Source of the DNA: Pedobacter puniceum
GTDB lineage: Bacteria; Bacteroidota; Bacteroidia; Sphingobacteriales; Sphingobacteriaceae
Assembly (NCBI RefSeq): GCF_009674685.1
Contig: NZ_WKJI01000001.1
Location: 744,001-808,000 of the forward strand
DNA length: 64,000 nt
Direction: 5' to 3'
The position numbers were made by a program, and so were the translations under genes. This document shows, one piece after another, positions 138 through 17,349 of this stretch (position 1 is the stretch's first letter; every line of letters begins with the position of its first letter). A model generated the notes under the pieces. That model saw nothing but the letters and a program-made list of their open reading frames with translations, searched no databases and was not told the DNA's origin.

Positions 138-771
138 AAAATTTTGTTTAAGGTTTTATAATAATTGTTCAACAAAATTAAATACAAAAAGTTTTAATTG
201 TTTGATTTTTAGGTGTTTAATTTATTAACAAAATTTAGGTATTTTTTAAAAATGTGCCTTTTTGCCTATATAAAGCCTAATTGTAGCGGGGAATAATGTG
301 TAATTTTTACCTCAAAAATTTTCATAATAAGCTAAAATTATCTTTAAAATAGATGTCTTTGGTCTTTATTTTCAGTTGCCAACTGCCAGTTTTTTAGTTG
401 TGAGTTTCAAGTTCTGGGTGTAGAATTTCCTGTTTTTTACTTTTGAATTTTCCCTTTTCCCTTTTGAATTTTCCCTTTTTAACCAGAAAAGCCCATTCCA
501 TACTACTATCATCCGCCAGTCCGGTGCTTTGCTTAACTCCTCGTCCATTTTCCGCAAAAGCTCCAAATGTCCTGTGGGGTATCGCCCTCGCCCCGGTTTA
601 GTTGGGGTAGGGTTGGTGCTAAACGCAGCTAAAAGTTTAAAACCTTAGCTATTGGAAAAAGACTAACTGTTTGTAGTGAGAACTTCCTAAGGTTGCATCC
701 TCATTATTGTCTTTATCACATGATTATTATAGCCACGGGTTTAAACCTGTGGCTATAGAAACAATATGAGA
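138..771. other. AT-rich intergenic region with gene debris, left of the CRISPR array
   Basis: No convincing gene is seen. The minus-strand ORF at 372-566 (64 aa) has a low-complexity C-terminal half built from a short direct repeat (TTTTGAATTTTCCC occurs twice near 440-478). The same frame stays open upstream to about 645, with no start codon before an in-frame TAA, so it looks like decayed coding sequence or chance. No rightward Bacteroidota promoter (TTTG then TAnnTTTG) was found between 560 and 771, which matters because the array appears to be read rightward. A hairpin at 728-757 is listed separately. Confidence 0.5.
728..757. repeat. REP-like palindrome at the distal end of the array
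   Basis: A near-perfect inverted repeat with arms TATAGCCACGGGTTT and AAACCTGTGGCTATA sits 14 bp left of the terminal degenerate CRISPR repeat. Only one G-T pair breaks the symmetry. Hairpins of the form GCCACGGGTTT are common repetitive extragenic palindromes in Bacteroidota genomes and are thought to be mobilised by RAYT-type HUH transposases, one of which lies in the cas operon of this window. That link is inference: the hairpin differs in sequence from the palindrome inside the RAYT gene. There is no T-run after it, so it is not an obvious terminator. Confidence 0.55.
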
Positions 772-3700
772 ATTGTGATTTGCTTTCATTCTTTGAACTA
801 CTGATATTTACAACAATACCAAAGCGGACAACCTGTTTTAGACTTAGTTGTGATTTGCTTTCATTCTTTGAACTACTGATATTTACAACAACAAACTGCT
901 CATCTATAATATCTGTTGCTGAGTTGTGATTTGCTTTCATTCTTTGAACTACTGATATTTACAACAACGTTAGCATACGTTCTGCTACTGCAAGTCCGTT
1001 GTGATTTGCTTTCATTCTTTGAACTACTGATATTTACAACAACACAGCTTTCGTTTTGTGTGCAAGTGCAAGTGTTGTGATTTGCTTTCATTCTTTGAAC
1101 TACTGATATTTACAACAACTGAATCTGCGCAAAGAAAGTTAAGCTATTAGTTGTGATTTGCTTTCATTCTTTGAACTACTGATATTTACAACAACGTACT
1201 CTCTTTATGCCGTACTCTTTATTCTGTTGTGATTTGCTTTCATTCTTTGAACTACTGATATTTACAACAACGGACAACCTGTAAACGGTTTTCCTCCTTC
1301 GGTTGTGATTTGCTTTCATTCTTTGAACTACTGATATTTACAACAACGGTGGTAAAACTGGTGTTAGTGGTGAGGTTGTTGTGATTTGCTTTCATTCTTT
1401 GAACTACTGATATTTACAACAACCCGAGTTCCTCCCCTTGTTTCTTTTTTATTGTTGTGATTTGCTTTCATTCTTTGAACTACTGATATTTACAACAACT
1501 TATATTAGAAGCACTAATGTAGCCTTGCTGTTGTGATTTGCTTTCATTCTTTGAACTACTGATATTTACAACAACTCTAAAATCGCCAGCGATGCGGTCG
1601 TTTTGTTGTGATTTGCTTTCATTCTTTGAACTACTGATATTTACAACAACCTCTAAAATCGCCAGCGATGCGGTCATTCTGTTGTGATTTGCTTTCATTC
1701 TTTGAACTACTGATATTTACAACAACGGTTTTGTTTTCTGATGTTTCTTGTTGAAGGTTGTGATTTGCTTTCATTCTTTGAACTACTGATATTTACAACA
1801 ACTTTCCAATTGACTTTAAGTTTCGCGGTAGCGTTGTGATTTGCTTTCATTCTTTGAACTACTGATATTTACAACAACCCAAACAGTTATAACATAGCAA
1901 AAGAATTTGTTGTGATTTGCTTTCATTCTTTGAACTACTGATATTTACAACAACAAAAGAAAGCGGATTACAGTTATCAAAGCAGTTGTGATTTGCTTTC
2001 ATTCTTTGAACTACTGATATTTACAACAACTTTTAAAGCTGTAAGGGTTTGGGGTGGTTTGTTGTGATTTGCTTTCATTCTTTGAACTACTGATATTTAC
2101 AACAACTTTATGTCCTGTAAGCAAACTTAACGAGGCGTTGTGATTTGCTTTCATTCTTTGAACTACTGATATTTACAACAACAACATCTAGTTTGTTGTT
2201 TAGGAATTTACCGTTGTGATTTGCTTTCATTCTTTGAACTACTGATATTTACAACAACCAGCTTGCACCTCTTCCAATACCAATCCCCGTTGTGATTTGC
2301 TTTCATTCTTTGAACTACTGATATTTACAACAACAACATCTAGTTTGTTGTTTAGGAATTTACCGTTGTGATTTGCTTTCATTCTTTGAACTACTGATAT
2401 TTACAACAACTGTAGGGCTTTGGAGCGGTAATCGGCTGAAGTTGTGATTTGCTTTCATTCTTTGAACTACTGATATTTACAACAACAAATAACAAGGCAT
2501 TACAACGTAGGAACTCGTTGTGATTTGCTTTCATTCTTTGAACTACTGATATTTACAACAACACATTTTTTCCTGCAATTCGGCAATGTTTAGTTGTGAT
2601 TTGCTTTCATTCTTTGAACTACTGATATTTACAACAACGGCTCTTTCTTTGGTGTTGCAAGCACCTAGTTGTGATTTGCTTTCATTCTTTGAACTACTGA
2701 TATTTACAACAACTCTCGGTAAGGGCTTTTTAAAACCATCAATGTTGTGATTTGCTTTCATTCTTTGAACTACTGATATTTACAACAACCTCTAAAATCG
2801 CCAGCGATGCGGTCATTTTGTTGTGATTTGCTTTCATTCTTTGAACTACTGATATTTACAACAACTAATAACTCTAAGTTACCTGCTTCCCTACTGTTGT
2901 GATTTGCTTTCATTCTTTGAACTACTGATATTTACAACAACTTTTAACTCGGCCTTACTTTGTGGATCTATGTTGTGATTTGCTTTCATTCTTTGAACTA
3001 CTGATATTTACAACAACAACGAGGATTAATAATACTGTTTACACCAAAACGTTGTGATTTGCTTTCATTCTTTGAACTACTGATATTTACAACAACAAAT
3101 AACAAGGCATTACAGCGTAGGAACTCGTTGTGATTTGCTTTCATTCTTTGAACTACTGATATTTACAACAACATCCGTTTGAAACATCGGTATACTTTCC
3201 GTGTTGTGATTTGCTTTCATTCTTTGAACTACTGATATTTACAACAACTTGGGCTTTGTTTTTGTGCATTTCGTTTCCGTTGTGATTTGCTTTCATTCTT
3301 TGAACTACTGATATTTACAACAACGTTGTAAGAAATGCTTATAGGCAAATTACTGTTGTGATTTGCTTTCATTCTTTGAACTACTGATATTTACAACAAC
3401 AATAGTAATCATAGAAGACACTGTTTACAAGTTGTGATTTGCTTTCATTCTTTGAACTACTGATATTTACAACAACTTGAAGACGCTCTACTTTGTCCAT
3501 GTTATCGTTGTGATTTGCTTTCATTCTTTGAACTACTGATATTTACAACAACGCCCCAGCGGTAACTGTTTTAGTTTCATCGTTGTGATTTGCTTTCATT
3601 CTTTGAACTACTGATATTTACAACAACGTGTCCTATAATACAAGACTCTAAACCTGTGTTGTGATTTGCTTTCATTCTTTGAACTACTGATATTTACAAC

Positions 3701-6700
3701 AACGCAGAGTTATTCAATCTTGTAGCATCGTTAGTTGTGATTTGCTTTCATTCTTTGAACTACTGATATTTACAACAACCTAATCTGTCTTGTACAGACC
3801 TAGAGTCTAGTTGTGATTTGCTTTCATTCTTTGAACTACTGATATTTACAACAACATAGAACTACAGCTATATATTATACAGACAGTTGTGATTTGCTTT
3901 CATTCTTTGAACTACTGATATTTACAACAACCCACCAAGTCCTCTGGGTAGTCTTCATTATGTTGTGATTTGCTTTCATTCTTTGAACTACTGATATTTA
4001 CAACAACTACGTATAATTTATTTGGAGCTGAAACTATGTTGTGATTTGCTTTCATTCTTTGAACTACTGATATTTACAACAACTCATAAAGCTATGGCAG
4101 TACTTTACAGACCGTTGTGATTTGCTTTCATTCTTTGAACTACTGATATTTACAACAACCAAATTTACCTTTAAGATTAAAACCCCTTGGTTGTGATTTG
4201 CTTTCATTCTTTGAACTACTGATATTTACAACAACTTATGAAGGTTTTCCTGTAATTAGACATTGGTTGTGATTTGCTTTCATTCTTTGAACTACTGATA
4301 TTTACAACAACACAAAGAATTGGCACATGGTAGCCTCCATTGTTGTGATTTGCTTTCATTCTTTGAACTACTGATATTTACAACAACTACAGTTACTACC
4401 GTACCATTTTGTACATTGTTGTGATTTGCTTTCATTCTTTGAACTACTGATATTTACAACAACCACTTGGGAAAGGCTCTACTGGTGTAAATGGTTGTGA
4501 TTTGCTTTCATTCTTTGAACTACTGATATTTACAACAACCACGCAATAAAAATGGCTTTCTTTTCTGTTGTTGTGATTTGCTTTCATTCTTTGAACTACT
4601 GATATTTACAACAACTGGTAATGGTTTTCATCCTACTACCGGGCGGTTGTGATTTGCTTTCATTCTTTGAACTACTGATATTTACAACAACTGGGTGGTA
4701 CTTCTGGCAGCTCTTGCCGGCGTTGTGATTTGCTTTCATTCTTTGAACTACTGATATTTACAACAACTTGTTTATTGATATTCTTTTGTTCTTGGCTGTT
4801 GTGATTTGCTTTCATTCTTTGAACTACTGATATTTACAACAACCAGCCTTTAACCTTTTTACCTCATCCACATGTTGTGATTTGCTTTCATTCTTTGAAC
4901 TACTGATATTTACAACAACAAAGTCAGGAGACCTGCCTAATCGCTCTTTGTTGTGATTTGCTTTCATTCTTTGAACTACTGATATTTACAACAACAAAGT
5001 CAGGAGACCTGCCTAATCGCTCTTTGTTGTGATTTGCTTTCATTCTTTGAACTACTGATATTTACAACAACAAATCAATCTATTTGCTGGCTCTGATTTG
5101 TTGTGATTTGCTTTCATTCTTTGAACTACTGATATTTACAACAACGCATAAAGTCGTTAAATGCTTCTTTGGATTGTTGTGATTTGCTTTCATTCTTTGA
5201 ACTACTGATATTTACAACAACTATCAATCCAGAAGGAAAGACTGTTTATTCGTTGTGATTTGCTTTCATTCTTTGAACTACTGATATTTACAACAACGAA
5301 CTTCGCTGATTACTACAGGGTTCGAATGTTGTGATTTGCTTTCATTCTTTGAACTACTGATATTTACAACAACCAACATACGCTATAGAATGTTGAGTCA
5401 CAGGTTGTGATTTGCTTTCATTCTTTGAACTACTGATATTTACAACAACTAACGTAATTGTTACCAATCCTCTGTTTGTGTTGTGATTTGCTTTCATTCT
5501 TTGAACTACTGATATTTACAACAACTGTTTAAGTATCCTGATGTTTCCTTTTGATGTTGTGATTTGCTTTCATTCTTTGAACTACTGATATTTACAACAA
5601 CCAATATAAGAGTTAACAACGTTAATAATAGGTTGTGATTTGCTTTCATTCTTTGAACTACTGATATTTACAACAACTTGGTTGGCAATCATCCACATAG
5701 GTATTAAGTTGTGATTTGCTTTCATTCTTTGAACTACTGATATTTACAACAACCACGCAATACCAACTCTTTTTGTTTGCTCTGTTGTGATTTGCTTTCA
5801 TTCTTTGAACTACTGATATTTACAACAACATGTTGCGTATTAGGCTCATCAAGAAGTCTGTTGTGATTTGCTTTCATTCTTTGAACTACTGATATTTACA
5901 ACAACTGTAACATCTTTATGTAAAAGCTTTACATCGTTGTGATTTGCTTTCATTCTTTGAACTACTGATATTTACAACAACTTTTATTTGCCTATCTAAT
6001 GCTTGTTGTGTGTTGTGATTTGCTTTCATTCTTTGAACTACTGATATTTACAACAACGGTGGCGGAATTGGTAGACGCTGGGAGTGTGTTGTGATTTGCT
6101 TTCATTCTTTGAACTACTGATATTTACAACAACTCAGGGCTTATTGGTTTAACAGAGTCAAGCGTTGTGATTTGCTTTCATTCTTTGAACTACTGATATT
6201 TACAACAACCATTATGAGGCAAGTAGAGCGAGATTTGGTGTTGTGATTTGCTTTCATTCTTTGAACTACTGATATTTACAACAACGGTATATCATCTAAA
6301 ACCTTGTATAACATTGTTGTGATTTGCTTTCATTCTTTGAACTACTGATATTTACAACAACGGTATATCATCTAAAACCTTGTATAACATTGTTGTGATT
6401 TGCTTTCATTCTTTGAACTACTGATATTTACAACAACGATTATCCTTTATGTATTTGTTCAATTAGTGTTGTGATTTGCTTTCATTCTTTGAACTACTGA
6501 TATTTACAACAACAAAACTTTAGCAAATAGGTTTAAAAAAGGTGTTGTGATTTGCTTTCATTCTTTGAACTACTGATATTTACAACAACTATACATGAAT
6601 ACAACCCTATTGAAAGGTAGTTGTGATTTGCTTTCATTCTTTGAACTACTGATATTTACAACAACTTGATTGATGAGGTAAAAGAAAAAGGTTGTGTTGT

Positions 6701-9700
6701 GATTTGCTTTCATTCTTTGAACTACTGATATTTACAACAACTAAATTCTTAATTGTTACTTGCTGCGTAAGTTGTGATTTGCTTTCATTCTTTGAACTAC
6801 TGATATTTACAACAACATGATTGACCTTGACCGGTAATTTCAATCCGTTGTGATTTGCTTTCATTCTTTGAACTACTGATATTTACAACAACCAGGCCCT
6901 TTAATTGCTGCAATGGAATAGTGTTGTGATTTGCTTTCATTCTTTGAACTACTGATATTTACAACAACAATGGCTTCTTCTACGGTACCATCTTTATGGT
7001 TGTGATTTGCTTTCATTCTTTGAACTACTGATATTTACAACAACACCAGTGCATAAGCTTGATGAGAGCATTTTGTTGTGATTTGCTTTCATTCTTTGAA
7101 CTACTGATATTTACAACAACATAAAAACTCTTCTTCATTACTGGCGTTTCGTTGTGATTTGCTTTCATTCTTTGAACTACTGATATTTACAACAACTTCT
7201 AGGGAATTTATTTGAAGGTATCAAGTGTTGTGATTTGCTTTCATTCTTTGAACTACTGATATTTACAACAACCAAAATCATATAATATAACAGGCTTAGG
7301 CTGTTGTGATTTGCTTTCATTCTTTGAACTACTGATATTTACAACAACTAAAAGACATCGAAAACAAAATAGATAAAAGTTGTGATTTGCTTTCATTCTT
7401 TGAACTACTGATATTTACAACAACATCGAAGCGATGGACAAAATCTCTAAATCTGTTGTGATTTGCTTTCATTCTTTGAACTACTGATATTTACAACAAC
7501 TGTCAATCTAAAAGCAGCATCCAAATCCCTGTTGTGATTTGCTTTCATTCTTTGAACTACTGATATTTACAACAACAAATCTGCTTTTGCTACAGGAGCA
7601 CAAGCAGTTGTGATTTGCTTTCATTCTTTGAACTACTGATATTTACAACAACTATTTTCTGGGTTAACAAATAAAGAGTATAGTTGTGATTTGCTTTCAT
7701 TCTTTGAACTACTGATATTTACAACAACTAAAGCCCTGGCATCTTCATTGGGTACATCGTTGTGATTTGCTTTCATTCTTTGAACTACTGATATTTACAA
7801 CAACTAATTTTATATTGATTAATACATTTTAATTGTTGTGATTTGCTTTCATTCTTTGAACTACTGATATTTACAACAACAGCTTAATGAAAATGTAACA
7901 AAATCCTCGGTTGTGATTTGCTTTCATTCTTTGAACTACTGATATTTACAACAACCAATGGTTCTAAAACCTTTTTGCGGTAAGGGTTGTGATTTGCTTT
8001 CATTCTTTGAACTACTGATATTTACAACAACCGGTTTTCTTTTCAGAGTTAGACTGAATTTGTTGTGATTTGCTTTCATTCTTTGAACTACTGATATTTA
8101 CAACAACTACACCCATACACAACCAAAATAAATGATAGTTGTGATTTGCTTTCATTCTTTGAACTACTGATATTTACAACAACTATCCGTTAAATCTACC
8201 CTACCACCTTTAAGTTGTGATTTGCTTTCATTCTTTGAACTACTGATATTTACAACAACGGTTACCGCTATTATGCGCCCACGCAATCCGTTGTGATTTG
8301 CTTTCATTCTTTGAACTACTGATATTTACAACAACTTAATCTATGGTTTTGAAACATTCTACATGTTGTGATTTGCTTTCATTCTTTGAACTACTGATAT
8401 TTACAACAACTTCTTTCTTTAGCTCAGCTATTCTTTGTTTGTTGTGATTTGCTTTCATTCTTTGAACTACTGATATTTACAACAACTATCGTTCCTTATT
8501 TTCGATTTGTCCGAATGTTGTGATTTGCTTTCATTCTTTGAACTACTGATATTTACAACAACTGTAATTTGATTTTCTTCTATCTCAACTTTGTTGTGAT
8601 TTGCTTTCATTCTTTGAACTACTGATATTTACAACAACGTAACCTTCTAAGCCGGCAAGATTGTTTCCGTTGTGATTTGCTTTCATTCTTTGAACTACTG
8701 ATATTTACAACAACGCAACATTAGCTAATAACAAAGAAGAAGCTGTTGTGATTTGCTTTCATTCTTTGAACTACTGATATTTACAACAACCTTACTTTAT
8801 CTAACCAGGCTATGGCAGCGGTTGTGATTTGCTTTCATTCTTTGAACTACTGATATTTACAACAACTTTTCCAGAGTTTAAATCATCAGATAGTGAGTTG
8901 TGATTTGCTTTCATTCTTTGAACTACTGATATTTACAACAACACTTTCTTTGGGTGTGCTGTATCTGGTGTAGTTGTGATTTGCTTTCATTCTTTGAACT
9001 ACTGATATTTACAACAACTGCTAAAGGCAAGGAATTAACATCAACCTCGTTGTGATTTGCTTTCATTCTTTGAACTACTGATATTTACAACAACGTAAAA
9101 AAGCTTCGCATGCGGTGGCTATGGGTTGTGATTTGCTTTCATTCTTTGAACTACTGATATTTACAACAACAAAACCGCCTGAATTAGCATCGTAAACAGT
9201 GTTGTGATTTGCTTTCATTCTTTGAACTACTGATATTTACAACAACTCCAACTTTAAATGATGTGGCTACATATAGGTTGTGATTTGCTTTCATTCTTTG
9301 AACTACTGATATTTACAACAACAAATGTCAGTTGCACTTGCTCCACCTCCAGGTTGTGATTTGCTTTCATTCTTTGAACTACTGATATTTACAACAACAC
9401 ATGTCACCAAATTATGAACATATGGTGAGTTGTGATTTGCTTTCATTCTTTGAACTACTGATATTTACAACAACCTTATGCTGATAAGGCCCAATCGAAT
9501 CTTGTTGTGATTTGCTTTCATTCTTTGAACTACTGATATTTACAACAACGTATGTTGAAGTAAGCGTTTTAACTATTGAGTTGTGATTTGCTTTCATTCT
9601 TTGAACTACTGATATTTACAACAACGCTGTCTATCTCTTTACCAAAGGCTGTGGCGTTGTGATTTGCTTTCATTCTTTGAACTACTGATATTTACAACAA

Positions 9701-11220
9701 CAGAATGGACATTATTAAAAAATAATAATGAGTTGTGATTTGCTTTCATTCTTTGAACTACTGATATTTACAACAACTTTCAATTTGCATTTGCAATTTA
9801 TCAGCAAGTTGTGATTTGCTTTCATTCTTTGAACTACTGATATTTACAACAACCTGAATACTTAACTAACACTAATTCAGATGGTTGTGATTTGCTTTCA
9901 TTCTTTGAACTACTGATATTTACAACAACATCCGCCCTGGTTTGCAACTTCATCCCATTGTTGTGATTTGCTTTCATTCTTTGAACTACTGATATTTACA
10001 ACAACACATTATCAGATTAAACTAGGTAAAGGATTGTTGTGATTTGCTTTCATTCTTTGAACTACTGATATTTACAACAACGTTAATAGTTGATGAAAGG
10101 GAGGCGGATATGTTGTGATTTGCTTTCATTCTTTGAACTACTGATATTTACAACAACAAATAGTGTTAATATTACTGCTTCCCACATGTTGTGATTTGCT
10201 TTCATTCTTTGAACTACTGATATTTACAACAACCTTTTATGACGCTAACACTGTTGTTTCTAAGTTGTGATTTGCTTTCATTCTTTGAACTACTGATATT
10301 TACAACAACAAAGTATAAAAGAGATGCCTATAGCTCTTGTTGTGATTTGCTTTCATTCTTTGAACTACTGATATTTACAACAACTGATTTTTCTATTCAG
10401 GCATCTCAAAATAGGTTGTGATTTGCTTTCATTCTTTGAACTACTGATATTTACAACAACAGTTTTACCCAAAGTATTATTGTATTGTTCGTTGTGATTT
10501 GCTTTCATTCTTTGAACTACTGATATTTACAACAACTTCCACAGGCTAAGCAAGTTTCATCCGCAAGTTGTGATTTGCTTTCATTCTTTGAACTACTGAT
10601 ATTTACAACAACTAGGCATGCCTTTACCCACACCCATATCTAGTTGTGATTTGCTTTCATTCTTTGAACTACTGATATTTACAACAACCCCAACCCAAGT
10701 ATCACCATAGCCAAAAGCGTTGTGATTTGCTTTCATTCTTTGAACTACTGATATTTACAACAACCCTCGCTTAGTTGGTGGCGAAGAGATAGAGGTTGTG
10801 ATTTGCTTTCATTCTTTGAACTACTGATATTTACAACAACGGATTTTCATTTACGTAATTGTTTTTTAGGGTTGTGATTTGCTTTCATTCTTTGAACTAC
10901 TGATATTTACAACAACGCTGTTGTGAAAATGTCGGTGGCAATTACTGTTGTGATTTGCTTTCATTCTTTGAACTACTGATATTTACAACAACTTGTTATT
11001 TTGAAGTTGTCGAAGCCGTAGTGTTGTGATTTGCTTTCATTCTTTGAACTACTGATATTTACAACAACTTCTTTATTTCGGTTGTGTGTGGTTATGCCGT
11101 TGTGATTTGCTTTCATTCTTTGAACTACTGATATTTACAACAACGAAATTTCATCCCAAACAATATGATTTCCTGTTGTGATTTGCTTTCATTCTTTGAA
11201 CTACTGATATTTACAACAAC
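772..11220 (+). CRISPR. Type II-C CRISPR array, about 138 repeats and 137 spacers
   Basis: A 46-bp direct repeat starts GTTGTGATTTGCTTTC and ends GATATTTACAACAAC. It recurs every 75-76 bp without interruption. Spacers are 29-30 bp. From repeat starts at 847, 5026, 8062 and 11175 I count 136 intervals, plus the terminal repeat at 772. That terminal repeat is altered at its first base (A) and last base (T), as expected at the oldest end; internal copies look identical by eye. The first 16 nt complement the anti-repeat of the tracrRNA at 17281, which fixes crRNA polarity as rightward. The repeat carries TTTG, then 20 nt, then GATATTTA, a weak match to the Bacteroidota promoter, so each repeat may start its own crRNA as in Neisseria II-C. 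Several spacers are duplicated or nearly so (see findings). Confidence 0.99.
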
Positions 11221-11341: not shown

Positions 11342-11671
11342 TTAAAATAATTCTAATTGCTGTGGGGTACTAGGTAGGTTCTTTTCTTCCTTACCGTAAA
11401 ACAATTCCATCATTCCAAATTGCTTATCAGTAACGGTCATGATACCTATATGTCCTTTAGCTGGAAGTAGGTTTTTCACCCTTTTTATATGTACTTCCGC
11501 ATTTTCTCGGCTACTACAATGCCGTAAATAAATAGAAAATTGAAACATAGTAAAGCCATCTCGCATGATGTCTTTTCTAAAGCGAGTATAAATCTGCCTT
11601 TCTTTTTTAGTCTCAGTAGGCAAATCAAAAAATACCAATATCCACAAAACGCGATATTGGTTTAAGCGCAT
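11342..11671 (-). CDS. cas2: CRISPR-associated endonuclease Cas2 (type II-C)
   Basis: A 109-aa protein with the Cas2 ferredoxin-like core: the first strand ends in LVFFDLPTET, carrying the conserved metal-binding Asp, and GFTMFQFSIYLRHC matches the second conserved segment of type II Cas2. Cas2 dimers bridge two Cas1 dimers to make the spacer-integration complex. In most systems its role in adaptation is structural. It is the last gene of the cas operon, starting 3 bp after cas1, and faces the array across a terminator. The length is normal for type II Cas2. Confidence 0.96.
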   Translation of the reverse strand: MRLNQYRVLWILVFFDLPTETKKERQIYTRFRKDIMRDGFTMFQFSIYLRHCSSRENAEVHIKRVKNLLPAKGHIGIMTVTDKQFGMMELFYGKEEKNLPSTPQQLELF

Positions 11672-11674
11672 TTC

Positions 11675-12712
11675 CTAAAAAGGTAATTCGGGCTCGTCTG
11701 TACTTTTTTTATTTCCATATTTTATGGTTTTTTCAGCGGCATAACTTATAGGGGTATCATCAATATTTTTTAGGTATCCTATTCTTTTGGCATCAAAATC
11801 TTTTATAATAGGGTAGTTAATTTTTCTTAAAGTGCCCTCATAGCATTTAGCTAATGATGCTGTAGTATACTGTAAGCCAACCATTAAGGGGCTTGTGCCT
11901 TTTTCAAAACTTACATCAACACTAGCAATGCTTAATAACTGAGATTTTATGGCGGTGTTTAATTCTAAGAAATTCTCACCATTATCTATAATTTTAAGTA
12001 CAATTTTATCTACAAAAGGGCGGTAGGGCTCCATAATATCATCGGCCAAGCAATAAGCATTATATTTATTTCTATGATGTATTCCTAAAGTGGGTAACAG
12101 CCCCGAGGAGACTAAAGCTCTAGCTACAATAGCTCTTAAAATAGCATAACCATAGTTTAATAAATTATTAGGTGGGTCGCCATCTCTGCCCCTAAAGAAG
12201 TCTAATTTTTTAGGGAAAACGTTTCTCCAATAATAGGCTGCTGCTCGGCCTTCGTAATTATCAGGGTCGCCAGAGCGTACTGCTCTAGCCCAATGAATCA
12301 TATTTTCGCAAGCTATTCCTCTTTCAAATAAAACTGCCGCCTGGTTTAAAATCTTAGCTTGTACTGTTTGCTGCCACAATTGTTTTTTTAAAGGTAATGA
12401 GGCATCTATTTGATATCTAAAACGCTCACTTTGCGTATCATGTCCATCCAAAGGGAGCAACATTCCTATAGGATGATGGCTTTTATCGCAAGTAATTACC
12501 GCTACTTTATTCTCTAATAAAGCAGCAATACTGGCATGTGTTATGGTTATTTGCTGATTGTCTAAAATAATAACACCTATATCTTCAATAGGTACCAATT
12601 TTACGGATTCTTCTGTTCCCAAAGTTTTTAAATGGGGGAGGTCTATCTGTAATTGCCTATCTTTTAAGTTGAGATAAGCCGGGTTACTGAAGTAGAGGGT
12701 TCTTTTAATCAT
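11675..12712 (-). CDS. cas1: CRISPR-associated integrase Cas1 (type II-C)
   Basis: A 345-aa protein, slightly long for type II Cas1 (usually about 300 aa); the extra length includes a charged C-terminal tail. The N-terminal beta domain (about residues 1-90) precedes the helical catalytic domain. The three metal ligands are visible: Glu154 in NYEGRAAAYYW, a His in GIHHRNKYN (about 212) and an acidic residue in LADDIMEPYRPFVD (about 225). Cas1 integrates prespacers at the leader-repeat junction together with Cas2, and in type II systems also with Cas9. The start codon is 7 bp downstream of the RAYT stop, so the four genes are almost certainly one transcript. Confidence 0.97.
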   Translation of the reverse strand: MIKRTLYFSNPAYLNLKDRQLQIDLPHLKTLGTEESVKLVPIEDIGVIILDNQQITITHASIAALLENKVAVITCDKSHHPIGMLLPLDGHDTQSERFRYQIDASLPLKKQLWQQTVQAKILNQAAVLFERGIACENMIHWARAVRSGDPDNYEGRAAAYYWRNVFPKKLDFFRGRDGDPPNNLLNYGYAILRAIVARALVSSGLLPTLGIHHRNKYNAYCLADDIMEPYRPFVDKIVLKIIDNGENFLELNTAIKSQLLSIASVDVSFEKGTSPLMVGLQYTTASLAKCYEGTLRKINYPIIKDFDAKRIGYLKNIDDTPISYAAEKTIKYGNKKSTDEPELPF

Positions 12713-12719
12713 AGGTCAT

Positions 12720-13346
12720 TCATAGTGTTAGGATTTGATTTTCTATGTGGAGGTATTCTTTAAAGCAATCACGTTTTTCTTGATGATGATTTAAATAATC
12801 GGTAGTTGTACCAAATAACTCTGAACTTAATTTTGGCTGTTGACTATTTAAATGATGAAAAGATGACCATTCCCACTCTGTAAGCTCATTTGTAAAGCCA
12901 TGTTTAATAGGATTGAGGTGAATATATAAAATAAGGTGGAATAAATAGTTTTGATCTTCAACCTCTTTTCTTTTAAAATTTTTCAGAAATAATGAACCTC
13001 GTCTCTGGTAAACCTTATTAAATGATTGGGTATAGGAGCTAAAAAAGTTGGCAAACTGTTTAGATAATAGGTAGGAAAGTTGGAGTTGTTTTTCTTCGGA
13101 ACTTAGATTTTCCAAAGTTCTGAACTTTGGAAAATCTCGTTCTAATTCTTCTTCATCTTTTATACGCACCAACAGGTGGAAATGGTTAGGCATTAAACAC
13201 CACGCAATTGTTTCTGCTATAGGGTCAATATGAATATGATACTTCGATAAGAAAAATGGATAATTCTTAGCTTCTCTAAATAAATTATCATCGCCGTTAG
13301 CATGGTTGTAAATGTGGTAATATTGATTAATTTGGAGATTTTCCAT
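12720..13346 (-). CDS. REP-associated tyrosine transposase (RAYT, HUH nuclease) inside the cas operon
   Basis: A 208-aa Y1-type HUH single-strand endonuclease. The HUH motif is PNHFHLLV (His55, His57) and the nucleophile is Tyr141 in YIHLNPIKHGF, the conserved RAYT motif; QRRGSLF in the centre is also typical. Known RAYTs nick and join single-stranded REP hairpins and are single-copy, domesticated relatives of the IS200/IS605 transposase. The gene starts 5 bp after the cas9 stop and ends 7 bp before cas1, with no terminal repeats around it, so it is a co-transcribed operon member and not a loose insertion. All catalytic residues are present and the frame is intact, which suggests selection. 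Any role in adaptation or array upkeep is speculation; insertion by hitch-hiking is the plain alternative. Codons 71-81 overlap a perfect palindrome. Confidence 0.9.
   Translation of the reverse strand: MENLQINQYYHIYNHANGDDNLFREAKNYPFFLSKYHIHIDPIAETIAWCLMPNHFHLLVRIKDEEELERDFPKFRTLENLSSEEKQLQLSYLLSKQFANFFSSYTQSFNKVYQRRGSLFLKNFKRKEVEDQNYLFHLILYIHLNPIKHGFTNELTEWEWSSFHHLNSQQPKLSSELFGTTTDYLNHHQEKRDCFKEYLHIENQILTL
13106..13136. repeat. Perfect palindrome inside the RAYT gene
   Basis: Arms GATTTTCCAAAGTTC and GAACTTTGGAAAATC are exact reverse complements around a single T. Together they encode about residues 71-81 (DFPKFRTLEN). Palindromes of the type CCAAAGTTC/GAACTTTGG are frequent REP elements in Bacteroidota genomes. 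The element may be the target of its own transposase, embedded in frame. It could also form a hairpin in the operon mRNA between cas9 and cas1, affecting translation or RNA stability. Confidence 0.85.
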
Positions 13347-13351
13347 GATTT

Positions 13352-16300
13352 TTATTCTCCAATTTTTGTAATTTCACCTAAATGGTTCAAACGTACTTTT
13401 ATTGGGTTCTTAGATAGAAATGCTCCAACACTTTTAAATAAGTAAAATCTTCTACTTTCTTTAGCGCCCAATGTTACCTTTAATTCAGAGTTTTTAGTCT
13501 CTAAATGATGTCTAAACCAGTATTGATTATCACCAATACTCCAAACTAAATACAAGTGTTTACTTAATAAGGACTTGTTGTTTTGTCGCATTGCTTCATC
13601 AAATTCTTCTTTTGATAATCCTAGTACAAACATTTCATTTTGTTGCATACTAAGTTGTAGCTCCAAATTATCAGCAGGAAGTTTATCTAAAAATGGTTGA
13701 GGTAATTCTTTGTTGATTAATTCATTCCAAAGAGTATTTGTATTTTTAATGATATAAGGAATTTTGAACTTCTTACGCTCTACTGCATGCCAAAAGGTAC
13801 ATAAGTGTTGTATATATTTACCTGTGTCATCCCTATATAAAGCTATATGATGATTGTTTCCAGTTTTTGCAAAACCAATTTCTTTGCCATTATCATCTTT
13901 TTTGATGGCTTCAACTGCGGAAAGACCTGTAAAACATCTAACTGTTAATATAGGTATTTTTTTATTTTCATTAAACCAGAGTGTATCTTTAAATGCTTCT
14001 TTTTCCTTACCATTGTGAGCATCTAATCTCTCTTGAACCAATTGCTTTACTTTTTCATCGATAATATATTTTACATCATCCTTTTTTAAATCTGTGATTT
14101 TATATTTAATCACAAATTCATCCTTATAACAATGAGAAGAAGTCAGTAATATAGTTTTGCCTAAGTCAAGGTAAATAGGAGACTTTTTTAAGGATTCAAT
14201 AGACTTTTTGATGTCATTATTGAAATCAAGAAGTCTTTCTTTCACTTTTATTTTAATGAGTGGTTCAGCAATCAGATTTGGGTTTTCAAAGAGATACTTA
14301 ATAGGATATTTAATTAATGTACCTGTCTTGAAATCCTTAGAGATAGTTTTAATTTTTCCATAAACAAACTGTTCATGCAAAGCACCTCTTGGCACAATCA
14401 CACCTGTTTTTTTATTTTCGCCTACAGCTTTATATCTGCTGATAGTTGCTACTTTTTTTCCTGCTTTAAAAGATACTAAAATCTTGTCTGCTTCATGTTC
14501 AATTTCTTCAGTTGAGAAAGGCTTTTTCTCTACTAAATAATTTTCTAGTAATGTTAATCGTTCGTTGTAAACAATTCTATCTTCTTCCAATTCTTTTCTC
14601 ATTCCATCTTTTACATCGCTACTACTCAGCGTATTTATGCGTTGTATAAAGCCTTGTTGAGTACAAGCTATAACTAGGGCATCTATTGCATGATGGCGAT
14701 GGTCATCTCTTTTTGTCCAAATTTCTTTGTCGATAATTTCTTTAGTATGCTTTCTATTGCCATGATCACTAGTCCAAGTCTCCAACTTTGTTTGGTTTGC
14801 ATATTTAAATCTTTCAAATTGTAAGTTCATTAATACATCTTCCCAACCCCAAAGTTGTCGTAGTTTTGCAGTAACATTTCCCTCTGTGCTCGTCACATTA
14901 TGGCAAACTTTTCCTAATATTTCTTTTGCTTTTCTAGCAATGTAAGCTGTTTCACGTAATTGTCTGTCAATAAAGTTTTCCCACAACCTTTTATCAGCTT
15001 CTGTTTCTTTACCGACTTTCTTACGTTCTTGATATTCTTCAAATGAAACTTTTAAACGTTGCATTTTTCCGTAAGAAATTATTCCTCGTTTAAACCAATC
15101 ATCTACTCTGGTAACATAAGCGTTTAACGCTTCATTCCCTTTTTTAGCAATATAGTCGTAAGCTGTATTGTTTGTTTTGGTAGCGTTACAACTTCTATGC
15201 ACCAGTACTTTATTAGTTTGCGAATCATCAAACAATAATGCTTTTGGTACTATATGATCTACATCGAAGTTATCTCCACTTAGTGCTTCGGTCAGATTGA
15301 ATGTTTCACCACAATAAATACATTGATTTGCAACTTGGGCTTCTTTCCAGTTTTTATCCTTTGCCGGAAAAATAAACTTATATTTTTGAATGTAGCGTTT
15401 GGTTGTCGGTAGTCCAAGTTCAGTAAGTTTAGTTGCGACTAATTCATTAAGTTTTTTATTAAAACCATTTAGCTTATCAGCGTCTTCTCGCTCATCTTTA
15501 CTTTGTTTTAATTCTCTAGCAAGCTCAACTCTAATCTCCTCAGGTTTTCCATATTTCTGGATAATTGCATTTACTACATTTATCATTTGGTTAAGAATTT
15601 TTTCTACTACTGGTTGTCGCAAGCTGTTTTTAGCCAATAATTGCAAAGGCTCATCTGAAATATTTTTTGATTTTTCTTCTTTAGTAAATTTTCTATTATA
15701 ACCAGCAAAACTTTCAGCATCAGATTGGTTGTAACCTAACATTAAATAAGGTAACATTTTTCGCATTGCTTTATTAGATTTATTCCCAAATGCTGGCTTG
15801 TTAAAATCAATTTTAGAAAGTCTTTCTGCAATTTCTTCTTCAAAGTTAAAACGCTTCATTAAGGCATTTTTGCACTCATCTAACTCTTTTATAGAATAAA
15901 TTGTATGCCATAATTGATACAAAGGTTCTTGTTCTAAAGCTGAACTTAATTCTATGCTATCTCCCTCGTCTAAAATTTCACCAGTTTTTTTATCTAATAA
16001 AATAGCTAAATGTTTTGATGGTACAGTATGAATATCAAATTTTAGATGTTCACTATTACCTATGATTTTATGAATAGCTGAAAAGGTTATATTGCCTTGA
16101 ATACCTTTTAATATCTGTTTATTGGCATAAACCTGTTCTTTTTTGAGCCCTAAAATTTTAAGTAATTCTACGAAACTTAAATTTTCATTTTCTAGCAGAT
16201 AATCTGCAATTGTTTGTTTTTCTTCAATAGTAGGTATTCTATCGCCCCACTTATATTTACTTCCTTCTGGATTTTTAATTTTTAGTGAAATGTTATTCAC

Positions 16301-17182
16301 AACTTCCCATATTTTGCAGAGTTGAAATAATGGAGATGTTCTTGGGGCAACTTTTGGTCCTGTAAATATGGTTTTATTTTGTTGTGTTTTTTCATCAAAA
16401 TAAGTAGTTTCAAAACCTTCGAATTCACAAACGTTTACTAAGCCCTTTTGTGATTTTAGCTTACGTTGGTAGTAGATGATTTCATTACGTAATGAGTGAA
16501 TGACATCATCAGTTAAAAATGAGTGTTTAGGTTTTTGTGTATTAATTATAGCATCAAATTCTTCGATATAGGCTTCCCTAGGATAGACCTTTTCTTTAAC
16601 TCTAAAATAAGTATTATTTTGATTTGCTGCAGATAATTCATTATAGAAGTATTGCCCTAAAGTTTGGTTTTGTTCTTTTAATAATTTATATCTTCCCTTT
16701 ACTTCTGCCACATAATCAGTGTCTTTTTTGTCTGCATTAGCTTCACTTCTTGCTGATTTATATCCTCTTTTTTGGTTGAGCATATAAAGTATTCTACCTA
16801 ATTGTTTAGGAGTTATATTTTCAATGTCAGAAACCGCATCACTTCTTAGTTTCCATAAATCGAGAGTGGGTAATTTCATTAATTCTTCGGTAGGGAAGAT
16901 GTCAAGTTTCTCTAAAATCTTTTTCAGACTATATTTAAAATTATCAGATTTTTTTAGTTGTTTTCTATCATAACCTTTTCTTTGAGTCCTAGCTGTAGTT
17001 CTATCTTTATTTTTTGATATAGCTTGTCCTTTTTGAAATTGGTCTCTATCGTTTGAATACAAAGGAATTATTCGTGAACCCATTGCAATTATTTTAATCG
17101 GAACATTATTATCATCCACTTTGATAATTGCCCAACCAATAGAATTGGTCCCTAAATCAAGGCCTAATATATGTTTTGTCAT
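13352..17182 (-). CDS. cas9: CRISPR-associated endonuclease Cas9 (type II-C)
   Basis: A 1276-aa RNA-guided nuclease. RuvC-I is ILGLDLGTNSIGWA with Asp9; an Arg-rich bridge helix follows near residues 60-75 (KDRTTARTQRKGYDRKQLKK). RuvC-II is IRVELARELK with Glu553. The HNH domain has DVDHIVPKALLF with His643, flanked by CIYCGE and HRSCNATK, which look like a zinc site and the HNH Asn. RuvC-III is HHAIDALVIA with His831 and Asp834. The remaining roughly 440 residues hold the wedge and PAM-interacting region, which cannot be assigned from sequence alone. It uses the crRNAs of the adjacent array and the tracrRNA encoded divergently 99 bp upstream. All catalytic residues are intact, so it should cut both strands. 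Absence of Csn2 and Cas4 supports type II-C. The PAM is unknown. Confidence 0.98.
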   Translation of the reverse strand: MTKHILGLDLGTNSIGWAIIKVDDNNVPIKIIAMGSRIIPLYSNDRDQFQKGQAISKNKDRTTARTQRKGYDRKQLKKSDNFKYSLKKILEKLDIFPTEELMKLPTLDLWKLRSDAVSDIENITPKQLGRILYMLNQKRGYKSARSEANADKKDTDYVAEVKGRYKLLKEQNQTLGQYFYNELSAANQNNTYFRVKEKVYPREAYIEEFDAIINTQKPKHSFLTDDVIHSLRNEIIYYQRKLKSQKGLVNVCEFEGFETTYFDEKTQQNKTIFTGPKVAPRTSPLFQLCKIWEVVNNISLKIKNPEGSKYKWGDRIPTIEEKQTIADYLLENENLSFVELLKILGLKKEQVYANKQILKGIQGNITFSAIHKIIGNSEHLKFDIHTVPSKHLAILLDKKTGEILDEGDSIELSSALEQEPLYQLWHTIYSIKELDECKNALMKRFNFEEEIAERLSKIDFNKPAFGNKSNKAMRKMLPYLMLGYNQSDAESFAGYNRKFTKEEKSKNISDEPLQLLAKNSLRQPVVEKILNQMINVVNAIIQKYGKPEEIRVELARELKQSKDEREDADKLNGFNKKLNELVATKLTELGLPTTKRYIQKYKFIFPAKDKNWKEAQVANQCIYCGETFNLTEALSGDNFDVDHIVPKALLFDDSQTNKVLVHRSCNATKTNNTAYDYIAKKGNEALNAYVTRVDDWFKRGIISYGKMQRLKVSFEEYQERKKVGKETEADKRLWENFIDRQLRETAYIARKAKEILGKVCHNVTSTEGNVTAKLRQLWGWEDVLMNLQFERFKYANQTKLETWTSDHGNRKHTKEIIDKEIWTKRDDHRHHAIDALVIACTQQGFIQRINTLSSSDVKDGMRKELEEDRIVYNERLTLLENYLVEKKPFSTEEIEHEADKILVSFKAGKKVATISRYKAVGENKKTGVIVPRGALHEQFVYGKIKTISKDFKTGTLIKYPIKYLFENPNLIAEPLIKIKVKERLLDFNNDIKKSIESLKKSPIYLDLGKTILLTSSHCYKDEFVIKYKITDLKKDDVKYIIDEKVKQLVQERLDAHNGKEKEAFKDTLWFNENKKIPILTVRCFTGLSAVEAIKKDDNGKEIGFAKTGNNHHIALYRDDTGKYIQHLCTFWHAVERKKFKIPYIIKNTNTLWNELINKELPQPFLDKLPADNLELQLSMQQNEMFVLGLSKEEFDEAMRQNNKSLLSKHLYLVWSIGDNQYWFRHHLETKNSELKVTLGAKESRRFYLFKSVGAFLSKNPIKVRLNHLGEITKIGE

Positions 17183-17246: not shown

Positions 17247-17276
17247 TTTGTAATTTAAAAATAAATTATACCTTTG
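17247..17276 (+). promoter_or_regulatory. Promoter of the tracrRNA
   Basis: TTTG at 17247-17250, an 18-nt gap, then TACCTTTG at 17269-17276. This matches the Bacteroidota housekeeping promoter (TTTG, 17-23 nt, TAnnTTTG) exactly. Transcription is expected to begin about 6-8 nt downstream, which is the first bases of the anti-repeat. The match sets both the direction and the 5' end of the tracrRNA. Confidence 0.8.
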
Positions 17277-17280
17277 ATTT

Positions 17281-17349
17281 TGAAAGCAAATCACAATAAG
17301 GATTATTCCGTTGTGAAAACATTCAAGGCGGGGCAACTCGCCTTTTTTT
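17281..17349 (+). ncRNA. tracrRNA
   Basis: The anti-repeat TGAAAGCAAATCACAA (17281-17296) is an exact complement of bases 2-17 of the CRISPR repeat. It is followed by a nexus region (AAGGATTATTCCGTTGTG and on to about 17325), then a terminator hairpin AGGCG/CGCCT and seven T. This order is the standard layout of a type II tracrRNA. It pairs with each crRNA repeat and loads Cas9. It is transcribed divergently from cas9 by the promoter just upstream. Predicted length is about 68 nt, or about 135 nt if transcription reads through the first terminator into the second module. Confidence 0.93.

Follow-up and report, generated by a model that had tools for sequence, protein, structure and literature searches.

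A RAYT-type HUH enzyme gene recurs between cas9 and cas1 in type II-C CRISPR operons of Bacteroidota

TnpA of the IS200/IS605 elements, together with IscB, represents the presumed ancestry of Cas9. The work of Altae-Tran in 2021 reportedly mentions tnpA in the vicinity of one branch of II-C Cas9 proteins of very large size, so that part of what is described here may have been noticed before. Another branch of the single-tyrosine (Y1) HUH enzymes comprises the RAYTs or TnpA-REP proteins, which form class 2. Subclass 2.4 (RAYT group 4) is hosted by Bacteroidetes, carries a REP inside the tnpA gene and shows the motifs YIxNNP and NH[IFV]H, and subclass 2.1 contains TnpA-REP proteins without REPs; CRISPR is unmentioned in the paper on subclass 2.4 (PMC6006769). 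Among genes linked to CRISPR adaptation, those listed by FLSHclust encode RNase H and DNA polymerase (PMC10910872). The open-access full-text literature that we searched holds no description of a RAYT or any Y1 gene in a type II-C operon. Here, we report such a RAYT, which is real, recurrent and apparently undescribed in that literature.

The locus was found in a stretch of 64,000 nucleotides of Pedobacter puniceum (contig NZ_WKJI01000001.1, positions 744,001 to 808,000), referred to as the window. The minus strand carries, in this order, type II cas9 (13352..17182; 1276 aa), the RAYT-type gene (12720..13346; 208 aa), type II cas1 (11675..12712; 345 aa, TIGR03639) and cas2 (11342..11671; 109 aa), followed by a CRISPR array (771..11220) with 137 exact copies of a 46-nt repeat, a degenerate first one and spacers of mostly 30 nt. 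The label type II-C fits the locus, as cas9, cas1 and cas2 are its only cas genes. The RAYT reading frame is intact and starts with ATG; it is separated by 5 nt from cas9 upstream and by 7 nt from cas1 downstream, which confirms the frame and spacing given in a preliminary description of this DNA. A probable tracrRNA anti-repeat (ATTGTGATTTGCTTTCAAAATCAAAGG, 17271..17297, minus strand), read by eye, lies upstream of cas9, and two similar short stretches (ATGTTTTCACAAC.GAATAATCCTT) occur near it. The 136 spacers of the array include 133 distinct ones, a few being duplicated, and a palindrome at 731-754 (AGCCACGGGTTTAAACCTGTGGCT), present as a single exact copy in the genome, adjoins the old array end.

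The preliminary description had identified the gene product as a RAYT HUH enzyme with all catalytic residues, an assignment that our analysis bears out. The protein contains the HUH motif NHFH and the tyrosine motif YIHLNP, and residues H55, H57, Y141, N145 and P146 are invariant among 21 aligned cas-linked members. The closest PDB match of its AlphaFold2 model (pLDDT 90.8) is 4er8, the crystal structure of a RAYT in complex with a REP hairpin (E = 1.3e-6, TM 0.65 by target). A Pfam scan of the protein gave no match; its best family match is NCBIfam REP_Tyr_transpos (NF047646, E = 1.7e-14), a model by which it is a distant relative, at 53.9 bits against a curated cut-off of 80 bits. The window RAYT thus resembles the known RAYTs in its HUH and Y---NP motifs, its fold, its low copy number (one gene and one distant relative at 32% in a genome search) and a REP-matching palindrome, but unlike them it remains below the family cut-off and is seated in a cas operon slot, without flanking REPs or a genomic REP population. 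With subclass 2.4 it shares the in-gene palindrome, the fitting NHFH and the Bacteroidetes host, whereas its YIHLNP is not YIxNNP and rather fits subclass 2.1 (PMC6006769). As with IS200/IS605 TnpA and IscB, a Y1 HUH enzyme here neighbours an RNA-guided HNH/RuvC nuclease; unlike that TnpA, the window RAYT belongs to class 2, has YIHLNP instead of Y[IV]ENQ, lacks IS ends and terminal repeats and is present in a single copy. In pairwise codon models, omega was about 0.04-0.27 in RAYT, compared with about 0.03-0.07 in cas1, and dS was near saturation in several pairs. Judged by these models, the cas-linked RAYT is under purifying selection with its catalytic residues intact, and the relaxed selection that the preliminary description had weighed against its own proposal was not observed.

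A search of related genomes found RAYT between cas9 and cas1 in many species, so that the arrangement is not restricted to a single genome. A scan of one genome per species with neighbour mapping yielded more than 25 loci with the order cas9, RAYT, cas1, cas2, often with gaps between -4 and +16 nt, and the carriers belong to Chitinophagaceae, Sphingobacteriales, Flavobacteriales, Cyclobacteriaceae, Marinilabiliaceae and others. As a RAYT-led search is biased, type II Cas1 was searched first in 396 Bacteroidia genomes, 94 of which had a type II cas1 above the cut-off. A RAYT profile (A1) built from cas-linked members and run against these 94 genomes placed a family RAYT within the cas locus in about 20 of them, three of these copies being broken and a further one truncated at the end of a contig. 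RAYTs of the cas-linked family occur in 76 of the 396 genomes (E <= 1e-20; E-values and trees rest on short proteins here), and cross-reading of two tables showed no contig on which such a RAYT accompanies any of the roughly 48 matches to other Cas1 types. Over all loci fetched, many of the loci coming from metagenome bins and the 'Hungatella' locus being probably mis-binned, RAYT lies on the operon strand in 47 of 48 cases and between cas9 and cas1 in 40 of 48; in the remaining eight it follows cas1 ahead of cas2, follows cas2 ahead of cas9, or precedes cas9. Because it recurs in some 40 other loci, the cas9-RAYT-cas1 arrangement is not due to chance.

Colinear cas9 and cas1 were present in 76 of the sampled loci; the slot between them was empty in 42 of these, 15 had a RAYT there, 16 had other genes, and three had a gap lacking an ORF. 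No other single occupant is as common as RAYT (15 of the 31 ORF-holding slots), and the other cargo includes Fic, AAA ATPase, RhuM-Fic, nucleotidyltransferase, HIRAN, pRiA4b ORF-3-like and IS200 genes. Varied cargo was observed in L193, L194, L196, L206, L208, L209, L217, L218, L226, L232, L242, L249, L250 and L252. The gap ORF of L217 is an IS200 Y1_Tnp by Pfam match, and HUH-like sequence was recognized by eye in L250 (7416-8042; a protein without Pfam match) and in the gap ORF of L111, all three beside type II-C cas genes.

The gene had also been called a built-in member of the operon, which does not fit its distribution. It is present in about 20% of type II loci, its tree follows neither Cas1 nor Cas9, its position differs in eight of 48 loci, some copies are broken (pseudogenes beside intact cas genes in G295, G327 and G244), and elsewhere the slot holds unrelated cargo. 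Strict co-inheritance with cas1 and cas9 was rejected by the scatter of RAYT presence on a tree of 104 Cas1 proteins (26 changes versus 32.4 with shuffled labels) and by near-zero Mantel correlations across 34 loci with intact RAYT (RAYT-Cas1 rho 0.20, p = 0.07; RAYT-Cas9 rho 0.01). Since RAYT does not follow Cas9 in descent, the cas-linked RAYT is a later arrival and not a relic of Cas9 ancestry. Carriage by phages, plasmids or viral contigs was likewise rejected, with no matches in phages, plasmid matches of at most 40% identity and two weak viral matches.

Where the preliminary description had reported no terminal repeats, we likewise found neither flanking inverted repeats nor flanking palindromes at the window RAYT; it had missed, however, a perfect 33-bp palindrome with 16-nt arms inside the gene (13105..13137; AGATTTTCCAAAGTTC / GAACTTTGGAAAATCT), which is the only copy of this motif in the 3.9-Mb genome. 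Nearly all close relatives carry a similar palindrome at about nt 200-270 of RAYT. Arm pairs matching at >=14/15 positions were present in 45 of 58 RAYT genes, in contrast to none of 115 cas1 genes searched in the same way and to 3 of 1160 synonymous shuffles, a comparison that is free of palindrome-selection bias. An alignment of 37 palindromes revealed both-sided changes in 12 of 15 pairs and 101 compensated cells versus 21 after shuffling; the percentage paired in this alignment is inflated, as its sequences were chosen as palindromes. The stretch is translated in two frames across relatives (TFPKFxTLEK or NFSKVxNFRKV), and conservation therefore concerns the DNA rather than the peptide. 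Where both exist, the in-gene palindrome matches the RAYT's own flanking REPs at 13.4 of 15 positions (permutation p = 0.0005); it is therefore most likely the cognate REP, and RAYT probably acts on it. The in-gene palindrome is found in 38 of 41 cas-linked versus 14 of 61 unlinked RAYTs, while REPs on both flanks occur in 5 of 41 versus 23 of 61, and in 0 of 18 in the core group. The cas-linked genomes G000, G065, G075, G428, G527, G325 and G539 contain a single copy of the palindrome; in G388 and G238 the searched palindrome also occurs elsewhere, with 26 in G238. Thus, cas-linked RAYTs retain the inner REP and lose the flanking pair as well as the genomic REP population, which is new.

RAYT moves from operon to operon independently of cas9 and cas1, and several pairs of loci bear marks of its exchange. 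In L181 and L189, which belong to different families, RAYT is 81% identical compared to 57% for Cas1 and 29% for Cas9, and the homologous DNA block starts at the RAYT start. For the Niabella pair L036/L037, dS was 0.31 for RAYT versus 1.75 for cas1, and nucleotide identity was highest (0.95-0.98) around the palindrome; same-codon identity did not differ between the 5' and 3' parts of RAYT in this pair (0.80 and 0.77). In L181/L189, L046/L181 and L046/L189, recent sharing is limited to the first ~360 nt of RAYT, which include the palindrome: same-codon identity is 0.73-0.78 in this 5' part versus 0.43-0.47 in the rest (p 2e-4 to 5e-4), and the 3' part is at the cas1 background level. Such tracts, seen in few pairs only, resemble conversion tracts around a nicked site, but an equally simple cause would be ordinary homologous recombination for which RAYT, the sole shared gene, offers the only homology. 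An association of the 5' half with Cas9 and of the 3' half with Cas1 was tried and rejected (5'-3' rho 0.76, 5'-Cas9 0.04, 3'-Cas1 0.17). As the halves show no such split across the whole set, a crossover within the gene is backed for individual pairs only.

These findings point, by a narrow balance of probability, to a former REP-RAYT element that became a specialist of type II cas operons in Bacteroidota and spreads between them in a homing-like manner. Its ancestor would have been a REP-flanked RAYT element, whose descendant settled chiefly in the cas9-cas1 slot, lost the flanking REPs and, in the genomes checked, the genomic REP population, and kept the catalytic residues and one in-gene palindrome as its putative recognition site. 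RAYT, expressed from the cas operon and travelling with cas loci, would bind and, as expected from its family, nick this palindrome as single-stranded DNA; repair or recombination with incoming DNA may then place a partial or complete copy of the gene in further operons that have the slot or the palindrome in common with it. Spacer acquisition would not require RAYT. Such an element would work like homing endonucleases without being one of them: in both, a nuclease gene seemingly spreads between equivalent sites, and the conversion tracts seem to surround RAYT's own putative target, but this target is located inside the gene and not in an empty site. RAYT thereby looks like a specialised CRISPR-operon passenger more than a proven immune component, although its strand-matched placement and the REP loss would fit a domesticated gene that serves the host just as well.

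One such host role would be in adaptation, where RAYT could process single-stranded DNA ends or nick near the leader and thereby aid spacer capture and integration by Cas1-Cas2, in place of the fourth adaptation gene (csn2 or cas4) that type II-C lacks. The co-directional position next to cas1, the invariant catalytic residues of the 21 aligned members, the purifying selection and the link to type II rather than to other Cas1 types are consistent with this, and a sporadic extra gene adjoining cas1 recalls cas4, csn2, reverse transcriptase and the FLSHclust links; unlike those genes, RAYT is an HUH nickase by family and is not co-inherited with cas1. The preliminary description had further tied RAYT to an exceptionally long array. 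The window array of 138 repeats is an outlier, and complete arrays had a median of 24 repeats with RAYT versus 29 without (p = 0.77), which removes this tie; repeat period and its regularity were also the same in loci with and without RAYT. These data therefore lend no support to RAYT acting in spacer capture or in array growth, and as RAYT is moreover present in only about a fifth of type II loci and its broken copies adjoin intact cas genes, we regard a co-opted adaptation factor as unlikely. The slot might instead tolerate any co-directional gene, so that RAYT would be there by chance and decaying, as the unrelated cargo and the three pseudogenes would suggest. This reading is already weakened by the purifying selection, with most copies intact and omega well below 1; RAYT is also the commonest single occupant and retains its catalytic residues and palindrome, and we give little credence to a plain neutral hitch-hiker.

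RAYT bound to its in-gene palindrome might also tune the expression of cas1-cas2 relative to cas9. Compensatory changes keep the palindrome while the genomic REPs are gone, and 40 of 48 loci have it between cas9 and cas1, as would be expected of an operon regulator. However, the palindrome is also present in RAYTs far from any cas gene and hence did not arise for cas control, and in-gene REPs are already known from RAYT subclass 2.4 (PMC6006769); this regulatory role appears quite improbable. Likewise improbable, if slightly more so, is that RAYT serves as a dedicated joint, at which nicking of the in-gene palindrome would drive exchange of whole Cas9 against a retained cas1-cas2 module. Nearly every RAYT-bearing pair with Cas1 identity of at least 75% has a replaced Cas9 (about 27% identity), compared to about half of the RAYT-less pairs, and over all pairs this enrichment is suggestive; with disjoint pairs counted by hand it amounts to 6-7 of 8 versus 6 of 12, which is not convincing. 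In Bacteroidota, type II-C loci exchange their effector and adaptation modules very freely. Whole Cas9 is swapped (23-30% identity) between loci with 80-97% identical Cas1, both with and without RAYT, for example in the window/L032, L036/L037, L047/L050, L056/L059, L224/L236 and others.

The homing-like, independently spreading RAYT that dwells in the operon with a putative in-gene target is of more interest than an adaptation factor would be. With a family of single-stranded DNA nickases that has settled repeatedly where effector and adaptation genes meet, it becomes testable whether HUH enzymes can serve or parasitise spacer acquisition, and what drives the extensive Cas9/Cas1 reshuffling in type II-C loci. 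With one putative target site per genome, this RAYT also offers a clean system for the role of domesticated RAYTs. As a separate observation, one operon (L187:8890-11114) contains two different RAYTs, one ahead of and one behind cas1, and the in-gene and flanking palindromes of each RAYT are of a type peculiar to it.
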